From Kaistella soli (GTDB taxonomy: Bacteria > Bacteroidota > Bacteroidia > Flavobacteriales > Weeksellaceae), in NCBI RefSeq assembly GCF_019038595.1, contig NZ_JAHOPF010000002.1, positions 434,001-498,000 on the forward strand: a stretch of 64,000 bases of DNA. The letters are read 5' to 3'. A program made the translations under genes and the position numbers. Each line of letters opens with the position of its first letter. Position 1 is the stretch's first letter. The notes under the pieces are model-generated. The model saw nothing but the letters and a program-made list of their open reading frames with translations, was not told the DNA's origin and searched no databases. Of this stretch, positions 19,439 to 24,383 are shown piece by piece.

Positions 19439-19894
19439 ATGAAAGACGAAAACGTAAAAATATTGTTTAGATTTTTTAGCGATGTTTTAGAAGAATGGAC
19501 AGTGGAAACAATGTGGGCAGAGACCGTAGATGCAGAAAAAGGCTTATACAAACTTGCGAATATTCCATTTTATGCTTCTGTATCTTGTGATGACATAGTT
19601 TACGCAGAATATGATGAAGATGAACAAAGATTAATTTACAGAAAAACGATTGAGCAATCTGGAAACTCCACGATTCAAGTGGTGGTCATGGACAAAACTA
19701 TTGTTACAAATGATTTGCGTGAAACTTTTAATTCTTTAGGATGCGAATCTGAAAAGTTCAGTGAAGGGTATTTTGTAATTGAGGTTCCAAAACATTTAGA
19801 TTATAAACCCATTAGAAAAAAATTAGTAGAATTAGAAGAGCAAGAAAAAATTGGTTACGCTGAACCAAATTTAGCTGAAAACCATTATTACTGA
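19439..19894 (+). CDS. DUF4265 domain-containing protein
   Basis: This 151-residue acidic, soluble protein has no signal peptide. The pattern EEWTVETMWAETVD...GLYKLANIPFYASVSCDDIVYAEYDED and the C-terminal ferredoxin-like half match the DUF4265 family, which I recall as small stand-alone proteins often found in accessory or toxin-immunity neighbourhoods. Function is unknown. It is AT-rich and shares promoter sequence with its upstream neighbour, so the two may have arrived together or by the same route. Confidence 0.75.
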   Translation: MKDENVKILFRFFSDVLEEWTVETMWAETVDAEKGLYKLANIPFYASVSCDDIVYAEYDEDEQRLIYRKTIEQSGNSTIQVVVMDKTIVTNDLRETFNSLGCESEKFSEGYFVIEVPKHLDYKPIRKKLVELEEQEKIGYAEPNLAENHYY

Positions 19895-19972
19895 AAAATA
19901 GCAGCATCACCACTCACGCGCGAAATAAAATTCGAAAAAGTCAATCCCTTCGCGTGGAAAACAATAAAGTGC

Positions 19973-20299
19973 CTACCTCCTCAACAATCCCCTCAAAATC
20001 TCCACTTCCTTTTCCAGTTCGGCCAGTTTTGGGTTGGGCTTTACGGGGAAATTTTCCGGGTAACGGGCGATAAGATCCGACAGCAGATCGTAATTCAGCG
20101 CCATCGAAAGTTTCCAGATGATCCCAAACTGCAGCGAGGGCTGGTTATAATACGCGTGCACCGCGCTGGTGGTAACGCCCAGTCTTCTTGCCGCTTCAGT
20201 CGTTGAAATATGCAGTTCGCGGAGTTTCGCCCGGATAAACTGCCCAATATGCGGGTAAGGATGGGCACCGGGTTTCAGGTAAGTGTGTGAAGACATCAT
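19973..20299 (-). CDS. XRE-type helix-turn-helix regulator with C-terminal coiled coil
   Basis: This 108-residue protein has a helix-turn-helix at residues about 25-65 (LRELHISTTEAARRLGVTTSAVHAYYNQPSLQFGIIWKLSMALN). It ends in a short heptad-like helix (LAELEKEVEILRGLLR) likely to mediate dimerisation. It is GC-richer than the AT-rich genes beside it. Directly upstream of its start (22 bases) begins a phased array of TTAGAC-like repeats (20321-20495), which may be its own operators. A near-copy of the DNA encoding its last residues recurs at 20578-20607. Confidence 0.82.
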   Translation of the reverse strand: MMSSHTYLKPGAHPYPHIGQFIRAKLRELHISTTEAARRLGVTTSAVHAYYNQPSLQFGIIWKLSMALNYDLLSDLIARYPENFPVKPNPKLAELEKEVEILRGLLRR

Positions 20300-20320
20300 A
20301 ACTCAATGATTTAATGAGGT

Positions 20321-20495
20321 TTAAAGATAATAAATATATAACTAAGATTAATAAATATAGATCTTAAACCTATTCATTTACATCTTACACCTATTCATTT
20401 GCATTTTAGACTAATCAATAGAAGCTTTAGACTCCATTTTATCAGTTTAGAAGATATTTGTTAACATCTTAGACTGTTATTTTACAATCTTACCT
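20321..20495. repeat. Helically phased array of nine TTAGAC-like motifs
   Basis: Hexamers related to TTAGAC begin at 20321, 20342, 20364, 20385, 20406, 20427, 20447, 20469 and 20490. Spacing is 20-22 bases (mean about 21). The minus-strand consensus is GTCTAARATG followed by about 11 less conserved A/T-rich bases. Two adjacent units (20364-20384 and 20385-20405) are almost identical (CCTATTCATTT shared). Spacing of two helical turns puts all motifs on one face of the DNA, as expected for a cooperative protein-binding array. Confidence 0.7.
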
Positions 20496-20577
20496 ATTAA
20501 ATTACCTCTAAAGAGATGCATTTATTACCTTAATCAAAGCATCCGGACCATTAAATGAATATAAATTGCACCAGCCT

Positions 20578-20607
20578 CATCAAAAATCCCCTCCAAATCT
20601 CCACTTC
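20578..20607 (-). repeat. Degenerate duplicate of the 3' end of the XRE gene
   Basis: AATCCCCTCCAAATCTCCAC and its flanks closely match the DNA encoding the last residues of the XRE protein (19982-20007). On the minus strand the copy would read EVEIWRGFLM against EVEILRGLLR. It looks like the remnant of a second, decayed copy of that gene. No helix-turn-helix coding part is visible beside it. Confidence 0.5.
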
Positions 20608-20694
20608 TCCTACCGCCACAACCCTATTTTAACGGTTCGCAAAAAAACCGACTTTATTTTTAAATATTCATAATGGAGGTTTCCTAATGTCCCC

Positions 20695-20731
20695 TTACAG
20701 ACGCCCTATACAGACCTTATAGACACCCTAT
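20695..20731. repeat. Short direct repeat, period 22
   Basis: TTACAGACGCCCTAT (20695-20709) and TTATAGACACCCTAT (20717-20731) match at 13 of 15 positions at a 22-base distance, with a further CAGACC between them. The motif resembles the TTAGAC units of the nearby array. Confidence 0.5.
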
Positions 20732-20921
20732 GCCTACTCTAATTATTGAATCGCCAAAAATTCAAACATTTTTTGAGGATAATTAAACAGGCAAAAATTT
20801 CCGTTTTAATTTCAACATGGGTTGATGGTGTACAAAGCAATCTGCCTGACAGCGGTTTTTAAACTTAAAATTTTAACAAAATTTTAATGTCAGAAATCTG
20901 ATACCGATTCATTTATAAAAC

Positions 20922-20929
20922 TAAATTTG
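20922..20929 (+). promoter_or_regulatory. -7 box of the envelope operon
   Basis: TAAATTTG matches TAnnTTTG and lies 16 bases before the ATG at 20946, giving a short leader. No convincing -33 element is seen. Confidence 0.5.
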
Positions 20930-20945
20930 TTTAAAACTATTTTTG

Positions 20946-23900
20946 ATGGCTGATCATTCCAGACAGGTATTTCAAACCGATAATGCAACACGGTACAGAA
21001 CCACGCAATGGACGATCCGTATTGTTTCAGCTGTTTTAATACTTATTCTCCTTATTGTGGGAGTGGCGGTTTATAACGGGAAAAACCCGCTGATGCCGAC
21101 GATGAAATCCATAGGAAGTTCGTTTAAATCTAAAGTGGATCCTTCCAATACTTTCACCCTCGCCACGCCGCTGAACAAAAAGTTCAAAGGTTTCAAAGAT
21201 TTTCTCAACAAACGGATTGCCTATGAAGAAAAAAACCGGAGTGTAACGGATGCGAAACTGATCCGTTCGGCATTTTATGTTCCTTGGAGCCCGCTTTCCC
21301 TGCAGGATCTGCGGACCAACGGCGGCAAACTCAACACCATTTATCCGGAATGGTTTTTCATCAATCCAAAGACTTTTCAGTTAGATTCCCGGATCGACAA
21401 GGAAGCGCTTTCGGTGATGAAACATTACGGATTGAGCATTCAGCCGATTCTTAACAACTTTATATCGGTTCCCGGCAAACAGGGAAAATTCAACGCTGAT
21501 CTGCTGCATACCGTTCTGCACGATCAAAAAATACAGAATCAGCTGATTGCCCAGATCATCACTACTCTGAAAGCCAACAAACTTCAGGGGATCAATATCG
21601 ATTTCGAGGAAATGAATGAAAATTCGGATGAGTATCTGAACGCTTTCATGAAGAATCTTTACACACAGTTCAAAAGCAGCGGCCTTATTGTATCCATCGA
21701 TGTAATGGCGGATAACTCCGATTATAATATTAAATATTTAAAAGATTATACCGACTATTTTATCATCATGGCCTATGACCAGTTCAACGATTCTTCACAG
21801 GCCGGCCCCATCAGCGACCAGAAATGGATTGAAAAACAGCTGGATCAGATTGCGAAGGACATCCCTTCCGAAAAACTCATTCTCGGCGTAGGTGCGTACG
21901 GAAGACAGTGGATCACCGATGAAAACGGAACGCATACCGAAGACATTACCTACAGCCAGGCGATCGACAGGGCAAAAATATCGAAATCGAATATCCATTT
22001 TGATGACAATTCCTACAATCTGCACTACATGTACAACTTCTCCGGAAGCGCCTATGAATTCGCCTCAAAAAATGATGTGTGGTTTACGGACGCCGCCACG
22101 GCTTATAATATTTTAAGATTTTCCGATGACTACCGCAACGCCGGAACCGCATTATGGCGTCTGGGCAGCGAAGATCCCCGCATCTGGAGCTTTTACGGAC
22201 GCGACCTGAGTTCAAAAGCACTGGCGAAACAACCTTTCCTGTACTCCATCCTGGAAATGATGCCGCAAAATTTCAATGCAAAACCCACGGCAATAGGCAG
22301 CGGCGAAATGATCAACATCCTCTACTCCCCTGAACAGGGAAGACTGAAAATTGAAACCGACAAAGCCGAAAATCTGATCGCTGGCGAAACCTATACTCAG
22401 CTGCCCTCAGGATTTCTTTATGAAAAATTTGCAGAAGACAGCACCAAGATAGGACCCGGCCACAAAATCATTCTCACTTTCGATGACGGTCCCAATGCTG
22501 AATTCACGCCGAAAATTTTAGATATTCTGGAAAGAGAGAAAGTACCGGCAACCTTCTTTTTGATCGGCGAAAATGCCGAAGCGAATATTCCGCTCGTACA
22601 GCGGATCAACCGCGACGGTTTCGAAATCGGGAATCACACTTTCACTCACGGTAATTTAGCGAAAATGTCTCCCGAACGGGCCGCCCTCGAACTCAAAACC
22701 ACCCGCTCACTGATCGAATGTATTACGGGAAAATCTACAGTCCTCTTCCGCGCCCCTTACAATGCCGATTCAGAACCTCAGACTTATGAAGAGCTGGAAC
22801 CGCTCGCAAGAAGCAAAAAAGAAAACTACATCGCCGTAGGAGAAAGCATAGATCCGAACGACTGGGACCCGAAAATGACCAAAGATTCCATCATCAACCG
22901 CACCATCCGTTTTGCCACTCAAAACAACGCGAGTATTATTCTCCTGCACGATTCCGGCGGAGATACCCGCCAACCTACCGTGGATGCACTGCCGGCAATC
23001 ATTAAATATTTCAAAGATAAAGGCTGTGTTTTCACAACAGTAGCCGACTTAATGAATGTTCCTGAAACTCAGCTGATGCCGCCGGTGAAAAGAAACTGGA
23101 AAAACGATCTGAATTTCTTTTTCGCTTCCGCAAGTTACTGGCTTGGCCAGATCATCTATTCCCTTTTTCTGGTGGGGATTTTCCTTTCCATTGGAAGAAT
23201 GATTCTGATGGCAGTTCTCGCCTATCTTCAAACCAGAAAAGAGAAAAAACTGCTGGCTGATTTCAAAGGAATTCCTGATGGCTTAAAGGTGGCCGTGATC
23301 GTTCCTGCTTACAATGAAGAGATCAATGCTTCAAGAACCGTGGATTCTTTACTGAAACAGGATTACCGAGATCTTACGGTAGTTTTTGTGGATGACGGCA
23401 GTAAAGACAAAACCTTTGAAAACGTAAGAAAAGCATTTGAAGGAAACCCGCAAGTACAGGTTCTCACCAAACCGAACGGCGGCAAAGCTTCCGCTTTAAA
23501 CTACGGTATTTCCCATACCGACGCTGAATTTGTCATCTGTATTGATGCAGACACGCAACTGAAAAGCGATGCCGTTTCCAAACTCATGAACAGTTTTTAT
23601 CTGGAGGGAAATCCTCAGGACGTAGGCGCTGTAGCGGGAAATGTAAAAGTGGGCAACGAAATCAATATGATCACCAAATGGCAGAGCATTGAATATATCA
23701 CTTCTCAAAACTTTGACAGGCGCGCTTTTTCGTTACTGAACTGTATCACGGTAGTTCCCGGCGCTTTGGGGGCATTCCGCAGAAAAGCGGTTCTGGAAGC
23801 AGGCGGATTTACGACCGATACTCTTGCGGAGGACTGCGACCTTACGATGCGCCTTCACAAAGCGGGTTACATTGTCGCAAATTGTAACGATGCGATATCT

Positions 23901-24383
23901 TACACCGAAGCACCGGAAACCATCGGTCAGTTTCTGAAACAGAGATTCAGATGGAGTTTCGGGATTCTTCAGAGCTTCTGGAAACACCGCGATGCCATCT
24001 TCAGAACCAAATATAAAAACTTCGGGAAAGTGGCTTTACCCAATATTTTGCTCTATCAGATTTTGCTTCCTTTTCTGGCACCGCTCGCAGATCTGCTCCT
24101 CGTGGTAAGTTTGATCTTATCGGGATTGGGACTGATTGTGGCAGATCCGACTCATATTATCCTTTACTATTTCATCTTCTCCCTGGTTGATATTGCCGGA
24201 GCATCACTGGCTTTTGCCTTTGAAAAAGAAGATTTCAGAAAATTGGTATGGATGATTCCGCAGCGATTGGTTTACCGGCAGCTGATGTATTATATCTTAT
24301 TCAAATCTGTCCGCAAAGCAGTGAAGGGCGAAATACAGAACTGGGGCGTACTCAACAGAACCGGAAACGTAAAAACAGCTTAA
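20946..24383 (+). CDS. Trifunctional envelope protein: GH18-like hydrolase, NodB polysaccharide deacetylase and GT2 glycosyltransferase
   Basis: This 1145-residue protein starts at ATG 20946 (a TTG lies one codon earlier). A membrane anchor at about 27-43 precedes a GH18 (YaaH-like) domain at about 85-430, where the catalytic motif reads GINIDFEE with Asp219 and Glu221 kept. A NodB deacetylase follows (TFDDGPN with Asp513/Asp514, HTFTH with His564 and His568). Membrane segments near 730-760 lead to a processive GT2 domain (VAVIVPAYNEE from 782, DDG 816, DAD 867, QRFRW 999-1003), then C-terminal helices. This topology places hydrolase and deacetylase in the periplasm and the transferase in the cytosol. 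It parallels the division of labour of PgaB and PgaC in poly-GlcNAc export. The polymer is unknown. Confidence 0.88.
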   Translation: MADHSRQVFQTDNATRYRTTQWTIRIVSAVLILILLIVGVAVYNGKNPLMPTMKSIGSSFKSKVDPSNTFTLATPLNKKFKGFKDFLNKRIAYEEKNRSVTDAKLIRSAFYVPWSPLSLQDLRTNGGKLNTIYPEWFFINPKTFQLDSRIDKEALSVMKHYGLSIQPILNNFISVPGKQGKFNADLLHTVLHDQKIQNQLIAQIITTLKANKLQGINIDFEEMNENSDEYLNAFMKNLYTQFKSSGLIVSIDVMADNSDYNIKYLKDYTDYFIIMAYDQFNDSSQAGPISDQKWIEKQLDQIAKDIPSEKLILGVGAYGRQWITDENGTHTEDITYSQAIDRAKISKSNIHFDDNSYNLHYMYNFSGSAYEFASKNDVWFTDAATAYNILRFSDDYRNAGTALWRLGSEDPRIWSFYGRDLSSKALAKQPFLYSILEMMPQNFNAKPTAIGSGEMINILYSPEQGRLKIETDKAENLIAGETYTQLPSGFLYEKFAEDSTKIGPGHKIILTFDDGPNAEFTPKILDILEREKVPATFFLIGENAEANIPLVQRINRDGFEIGNHTFTHGNLAKMSPERAALELKTTRSLIECITGKSTVLFRAPYNADSEPQTYEELEPLARSKKENYIAVGESIDPNDWDPKMTKDSIINRTIRFATQNNASIILLHDSGGDTRQPTVDALPAIIKYFKDKGCVFTTVADLMNVPETQLMPPVKRNWKNDLNFFFASASYWLGQIIYSLFLVGIFLSIGRMILMAVLAYLQTRKEKKLLADFKGIPDGLKVAVIVPAYNEEINASRTVDSLLKQDYRDLTVVFVDDGSKDKTFENVRKAFEGNPQVQVLTKPNGGKASALNYGISHTDAEFVICIDADTQLKSDAVSKLMNSFYLEGNPQDVGAVAGNVKVGNEINMITKWQSIEYITSQNFDRRAFSLLNCITVVPGALGAFRRKAVLEAGGFTTDTLAEDCDLTMRLHKAGYIVANCNDAISYTEAPETIGQFLKQRFRWSFGILQSFWKHRDAIFRTKYKNFGKVALPNILLYQILLPFLAPLADLLLVVSLILSGLGLIVADPTHIILYYFIFSLVDIAGASLAFAFEKEDFRKLVWMIPQRLVYRQLMYYILFKSVRKAVKGEIQNWGVLNRTGNVKTA

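Follow-up and report, generated by a model that had tools for sequence, protein, structure and literature searches.

The question raised by this locus of Kaistella soli is what a row of degenerate motifs, spaced by two turns of the DNA helix, does in front of a small regulator gene. The window, by which we mean the whole analysed stretch of 64,000 nucleotides, contains a phased array of about 9-10 degenerate units (20321-20516, no strand assigned) upstream of a gene for an XRE/Cro-C1-type protein on the minus strand (19973-20299). Read from the sequence, the units start at 20321, 20342, 20364, 20385, 20406, 20427, 20447, 20469 and 20490, which reproduces the spacings of 21, 22, 21, 21, 21, 20, 22 and 21 bases given in the earlier note; its distance of 22 bases from the array to the XRE start codon (20299-20297, minus strand) is also correct. 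The "nine TTAGAC motifs" described there hold as nine units at 21 ± 1 bp and not as nine copies of a hexamer, since TTAGAC is exact in three units (20406, 20427 and 20469) and the other six read TTAAAG, CTAAGA, TTAAAC, TTACAC, TTAGAA and TTACCT. On the gene strand the core of the units is TCTAAGAC-like. Across the whole window, the exact hexamer TTAGAC is no more frequent than expected (13 matches versus 22.7 expected), and the signal is therefore the periodicity and not the hexamer.

The periodicity was quantified by autocorrelation. At positions 20321-20500 the lag-21 identity was 0.56 as compared to 0.32 ± 0.03 in shuffled sequences, and the sum over lags 21, 42, 63 and 84 was 1.99 as compared to 1.30 ± 0.08. 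None of 2000 dinucleotide shuffles matched the lag-21 value, the lag sum or the maximum across lags 10-89. Tandem Repeats Finder reported only 2.3 copies, which is in line with conserved cores separated by less conserved spacers, as had been proposed. A unit-chain fit yielded 10 units, so that the array may extend one unit further, to about position 20516.

The presumed binder of the array is the 108 amino acid product of the XRE gene. The protein matched HTH-type domains only, both just below the Pfam cut-offs, namely HTH_3 (E = 5e-4, 20.5 bits, cut-off 23) and HTH_26 (E = 1e-3, 19.4 bits, cut-off 22); within the family, HTH_26 was found in 11 and HTH_3 in 8 of 17 members at E ≤ 0.01. The AF2 model (pLDDT 76) places helices at residues 18-28, 33-40, 44-51, 58-67 and 72-78, followed by a C-terminal helix at residues 90-107. 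The 50 Foldseek matches listed were mostly Cro/C1-type DNA-binding proteins with probabilities of 0.99-1.00, the best among them being mostly C.BclI, SinR, HipB, lambda cI and the like, and none of these 50 reached E ≤ 0.001. The protein is thus predicted to adopt the five-helix Cro/C1 fold. The dN/dS values ranged from 0.11 to 0.30 for the six pairs formed by four relatives, and the gene is, as judged from its substitutions, under purifying selection. The HigA model scored 17.5 bits, below its cut-off of 47.7, and PADLOC gave weak matches only (best E = 4e-4).

The Bacteroidota-type -7 promoter element has the consensus TAnnTTTG. A putative element of this type that differs in the last base, TATCTTTA (20322-20329, minus strand), starts 30 bases ahead of the XRE start codon and overlaps the gene-proximal array unit. 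This is a weak match in an AT-rich region that holds three more such matches further up, and TAnnTTTG lies within 160 bp of the XRE start in only 14 of 37 loci. The promoter assignment for the window is therefore weak.

To what extent is the array a property of the gene family? At 42 of 46 distinct XRE loci in Kaistella, Chryseobacterium, Flavobacterium and relatives, the upstream region carries an array whose units lie 21 bp, 22 bp or alternately 21 and 22 bp apart; one locus was borderline and three were without. The upstream regions were inspected by eye before the shuffle test. The set of 46 drops duplicates of one locus present in two collections, the C-terminal remnant of G012 (L011/L056, no array seen), the second half of the frameshifted G010 gene (L013), L051 (the same as L030), and L053 and L078 with wrong starts, for which L104 and L088 were used instead; L054, L055, L057-L059 and L084 are generic XREs and served as controls. 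In the main test, which took lags 15-30 only, 38 of the 46 regions exceeded all 300 shuffles, with a best lag of 21 in 27 and of 22 in 11. The weakest genus locus counted as having an array, L002, showed lag 21 with 2 of 300 shuffles as good. Three further loci (L070, L076 and L080) failed the main test and have a 43-bp period, found in a separate comparison without shuffles; the units of L070 and L076 alternate between 21 and 22 bp. The borderline case is L052 (lag 21, 6 of 300 shuffles). No upstream array was found in the shuffle test at L030, where the gene is 5'-truncated, nor at L048 and L072, two more distant genes that seem intact and that speak against a strict rule. Partial copies in which no array was seen thus include both a 5' truncation (L030) and a C-terminal remnant (L056).

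Within the genus, the array was present at all 11 tested loci with an intact gene 5' end (L001-L009, L012 and L014), and two of these loci carry broken genes, one with an in-frame stop (L005, 1501-1824) and one with a frameshift (L009, of which L013 is the second half). The earlier note had named two outcomes that would refute it, a lost periodicity in close relatives whose XRE gene is intact and the absence of such arrays near any homologue; we observed the reverse in both respects, and array and gene are inherited together. The distance from the array end to the start codon varied from 4 to 170 bp, and the pitch was rigid in most chain fits. Values of z of at least 4 were obtained for 37 of the 46 family regions, as compared to 3 among 200 control regions upstream of neighbouring genes, and two of these three controls adjoin at L123, where periods of 21, 28 and 35 represent one 7-bp repeat. 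Six of the 200 control regions exceeded all 100 shuffles. On the downstream side the best lag was 21 at 3 of 35 genes, none of them significant, and none of five generic XREs had an array upstream. In the unit-chain fit, six generic XREs scored at most 32 bits and the fitted counted arrays at least 40 bits.

The pitch is conserved whereas the unit sequence is not, since it differs between lineages and between most paralogues. Consensus stretches from the chain fits include CAGTTTAAAACTAAGATTACGC (L006), GTAGTTnGAACCAATAG (L073), ATACCTATACTTTATGTAGG (L082), CTTAGCATAAAGCTACG (L029) and AAAGGATAAACCTATAT (L031), and because of this variation among lineages GTCTAARATG, for which a search next to homologous XRE genes had been suggested, is not a general motif. 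Array similarity followed protein identity (Mantel test, Spearman rho 0.35, 34 arrays, reached by none of 2000 permutations), with a correlation of 0.25 among the 527 pairs below 60% protein identity, and rose from 0.36 for pairs below 30% identity (282 pairs) to 0.77 for pairs above 85% (6 pairs); this correlation partly reflects shared descent. Paralogues within one genome mostly had different arrays, with similarities of 0.32-0.63, and L074 and L088, the proteins of which are 96% identical, have one common array (similarity 0.99). The pitch tracks the protein tree, requiring 5 changes as compared to a shuffled mean of 11.3 (none of 200 as low), in a tree of 39 proteins that is unsure owing to several long branches. 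A dyad tendency was observed in 14 of 37 XRE arrays at p ≤ 0.05, where about 2 were expected, while 23 fell short; the array in the window failed this test in the register used (p = 0.99).

The gene is patchily distributed. A single-sequence search recovered it, whole or partial, in 12 of 100 genomes including its own, and 11 of 36 genus genomes, again including its own, keep a recognisable XRE gene or a remnant. In profile searches, 97 of the 320 genomes of the taxonomic family had matches at E ≤ 1e-5, mostly to generic longer XREs near the limit, and matches at E ≤ 1e-10 were obtained in 14 of 395 order-sample and 9 of 395 phylum-sample genomes. The 20 named loci belong to Kaistella, Chryseobacterium, Flavobacterium and one Flavobacteriia MAG, and one homologue (L083 in G751) comes from outside the order. 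Contigs of 2.7-4.4 Mb carry several of the homologues, and no match was found in a plasmid collection of 72,556 records searched with two family members, a phage collection of 50,697 records searched with one, or viral contigs. On the searches of these collections, we rejected a phage or plasmid origin. Nine genus loci, including the G012 remnant and excluding G010 and G029, lie at most four genes from one acyl-CoA dehydrogenase-type gene (named by reading the window protein), and this common neighbour suggests that the position is old and that the gene was lost repeatedly.

Genus-level synteny aside, no partner gene recurred beside XRE across genera other than orf0, described below; neither a conserved motor gene within five genes of XRE across the compared loci nor an adjacent replication initiator was seen. 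A restriction controller was discarded since no partner gene recurs, and a HigA/HipB-type antitoxin since there is no conserved toxin partner and the HigA model stayed below its cut-off. An iteron replicon was rejected on the HTH-type matches of the protein and the lack of a recurring partner and of a plasmid match. Of the roles suggested earlier, a replication iteron thus finds neither an initiator nor a plasmid match, whereas a multimeric operator or nucleoprotein scaffold gains from the arrays at 42 of the 46 loci. In the window, a DUF4265 protein gene (19439-19894, plus strand, E = 2e-26) converges on the XRE gene, and no relative lies among the five flanking genes per side at the other compared XRE loci. 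An ORF of 1146 codons (20943-24383, plus strand) reads as a protein with glycosidase-like, polysaccharide deacetylase-like and glycosyltransferase-2-like parts.

The recurring neighbour, orf0, is an unannotated family of proteins of about 160 amino acids. The order orf0 - array - XRE was found in 12 of 45 compared loci from four genera, with orf0 within 0.7 kb of XRE in eleven and 2.1 kb away in one. Members of the family were present in 25 of 37 genomes picked for the search and in 28 of 345 genomes of a phylum sample. Of the thirteen matches at E ≤ 1e-50 in the first of these searches, twelve lie upstream of an array and XRE, and the thirteenth (G113) is short and without an array. We examined 41 orf0 loci, a set that leaves out seven duplicates, L236 at a contig end, matches with no locus assigned and all but two of the 12 loci adjacent to XRE, and includes the two of G444 (L272 and L292). 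A 21/22-bp array lay directly 3' of orf0 in 27 of the 41 loci at z ≥ 5, and in 25 of these 27 there was no XRE of this family in the flanks, mostly 1.5 kb on each side; with the same flanks, such an XRE was near L272 and L292 only. The best period behind orf0 was 21 in 25 loci and 22 in 4, versus 5 and 2 on the upstream side, and the median z was 9.0 versus 3.4; L279, in which orf0 was read with an early stop, has its array counted on the upstream side. Dyads were found in 11 of 23 orf0 arrays. Repeats with best periods of 32 and 15 bp, not 21, occur 3' of orf0 at L284 and L278, respectively. The genome of the window has three orf0 genes, each with a noncoding 21-bp array behind it (G000:C16:174591-175055, G000:C16:211325-211789 and G000:C14:105652-106116; L243, L244 and L245). 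None of six orf0 sequences matched a Pfam or NCBIfam model above cut-off, and no confident fold was obtained (AF2 pLDDT 39 on a two-row alignment). Since most of the orf0 arrays have no XRE of this family nearby, the architecture does not need this protein and another factor could be the primary binder. Phased arrays without XRE are the strongest point against reading the array purely as an operator of XRE.

Arrays were also found away from any XRE gene. A sample of the window's own genome, consisting of the window and 20 further stretches (463,505 bases, 48,813 of them noncoding), contained four noncoding period-21 arrays at z ≥ 7, that of the window and those behind the three orf0 genes, the loci of which had been put into the sample deliberately. 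A three-unit Kaistella array model gave nothing else at E < 0.01 in this genome when the best 150 of 2449 candidates were scored. The model search, with the best 150 candidates scored per genome, and searches with the unit of a resident XRE together identified nine further arrays elsewhere, in G596, G627 (two, one of them short), G444 (two), G023 (two), G008 and G033, and no XRE of this family occurs within the 15-16 kb around them; G033 has an array and no XRE match. Only L203-L206 came from a model built on other species. Three of these (L204, L205 and L206), which lie in genomes with an XRE and were detected independently of the resident unit, rank the resident XRE array 5, 1 and 2 of 39 by similarity. 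For L161-L165, which were searched with the unit of the resident XRE, the resemblance to the resident array is by selection. In both G033 (L203, about 5.9-10.8 kb) and G023 (L205, about 6.6-9.5 kb) the array lies between a dihydrolipoamide dehydrogenase-type gene and a region carrying a patatin-like gene, as named by reading, and this is apparently one shared site. At L165 (7414-7715, G444:C11) the array follows closely behind what reads as a ParA-like ATPase gene, ahead of a toxin-antitoxin-like pair, and the terminator there is similar to those at loci with orf0, array and XRE. The terminator before one of the G444 arrays resembles, by reading, those of the orf0-array-XRE loci, and this array may be a relic.

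Several known systems resemble parts of this arrangement. Proteins with the Cro/C1 fold bind dyad operators as cooperative dimers, and the DNA-binding domain fold of XRE is shared with HipB, SinR, C.BclI and lambda cI. The complexes of these four proteins involve few operators each, in contrast to the 6-15 units of the XRE arrays. A toxin or restriction partner accompanies HipB and the C proteins, whereas no such partner recurs at the XRE loci. Direct-repeat arrays at the gene of the binding protein are found in ParR/parC, TubR/tubC and pSK1 Par. ParR and TubR act together with an NTPase that forms filaments; no gene for such an enzyme recurs at the XRE loci.

The closest known anatomies are those of StbA with its stbDRs and KfrA with its operator OK. 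On plasmid R388, StbA is a small DNA-binding protein, the stbDR repeat is also present at a few other promoters, and stability does not require the putative motor StbB (PMC3098194). The stbDRs are 9-bp repeats spaced by 2 bp, one helical turn, with a single sequence and on a plasmid (PMC3098194). Both systems have phased repeats at the gene's own promoter, a position that is weakly assigned here, with copies elsewhere; the XRE arrays differ in their 21/22-bp pitch of two turns, in having a different sequence per lineage and in the lack of a plasmid match. KfrA of plasmid RA3 is a plasmid-borne HTH protein with a very long helical tail (residues 54-355), and OK has five 9-bp repeats in mixed orientation, with repression depending on repeat number (PMC7783346). 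XRE is likewise an HTH protein with a helical tail, but its last helix spans only about 18 residues, and its arrays have up to 15 fitted units.

We propose, with a probability of about 0.6, that the array serves as an operator dedicated to the neighbouring XRE protein, which would assemble on it into a cooperative nucleoprotein array, regulate its own gene and, in some genomes, act at other sites. Many genomes of Bacteroidota show the same layout at related genes, each lineage with its own site sequence, and the array is therefore most likely a docking platform dedicated to the XRE protein. The 108 amino acid protein would dimerise and place one dimer on each unit, the core of which tends towards a dyad in many of the family's arrays. 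With units 21 bp apart, or 22 bp in other lineages and alternately 21 and 22 bp in one, the dimers would lie on one face of the DNA at a distance of two turns, so that neighbours could touch and assemble cooperatively. Since the array lies on or upstream of the expected promoter, its occupancy would control transcription of XRE, and such autoregulation would be switch-like and sensitive to dosage. In some genomes the protein may also occupy further arrays, of which there are one or two per genome. The specificity of the protein and the sequence of its array would change together while the pitch is kept.

The main alternatives concern what the array serves. It could primarily be the partner of orf0, or of a third factor, with XRE having joined later and taking its promoter region from the array. 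The orf0 arrays without XRE in the flanks, their dyads and the position of the strongest orf0 matches agree with such an origin; we consider it unlikely, given that most XRE loci, that of the window included, have no orf0 within five genes and that, lacking a recognisable domain or fold, nothing indicates contact of orf0 with DNA. Another main rival, which we also regard as improbable, is an anchoring or centromere-like complex of XRE and array that positions or pairs DNA, with autoregulation being secondary. Its anatomy would be that of StbA, a small DNA-binding protein with phased repeats at its own promoter and copies at other loci, and the number of units would seem to exceed the need of simple autoregulation. 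It has to be set against the negative plasmid, phage and viral-contig searches, the lack of a conserved motor gene, and the presence of XRE in only 11 of 36 genus genomes, which makes the gene dispensable.

We find it very unlikely that the array acts as RNA, in the form of a transcribed row of small hairpins such as dyadic units would produce. The predicted folding of the minus strand does exceed that of shuffles (z = -2.5, matched by 1 of 200), whereas the plus strand reached z = -1.1 and no Rfam match near cut-off was found at 19900-21000; dyads would serve just as well for a dimeric protein, and nothing about an RNA would call for a helical pitch. Least credible of all is neutral tandem duplication or low-complexity AT-rich DNA. 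The region is AT-rich and Tandem Repeats Finder detects a short true tandem core, and yet the pitch is kept across genera while the sequence diverges, on which ground we reject a simple tandem duplication, and noncoding repeats of other periods at z ≥ 7 came only from L252 in the 463 kb of the own genome.

Beyond the operator that we favour, a structural role of the array has a fair chance. More tentatively, and we would rather doubt it than assume it, the arrays may represent an undescribed class of locus-specific nucleoprotein elements on the chromosomes of Bacteroidota, in which dyad-like two-turn arrays accompany a dedicated gene, XRE at one end or orf0 at the other, are rewritten in sequence per lineage at constant pitch, and act as a scaffold or anchor beyond an operator. 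In a literature search by title and start of abstract, with narrow terms and few subscription papers covered, such arrays were not found described. Intergenic TAACTGA direct repeats in Beggiatoaceae have reportedly been the subject of a published study (PMC4679880).

The family offers a natural series of matched pairs, each consisting of a small DNA-binding protein and a self-labelled array of presumed sites, and includes paralogues with different arrays in one genome. This is a ready data set for examining how the recognition helix of Cro/C1 proteins sets specificity and how helical phasing builds cooperative assemblies on DNA. The finding also makes the widespread, unannotated orf0 family accessible to experimental tests. 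If the role of the arrays exceeds autoregulation, they would be a chromosomal counterpart of the single-protein anchoring systems of plasmids.
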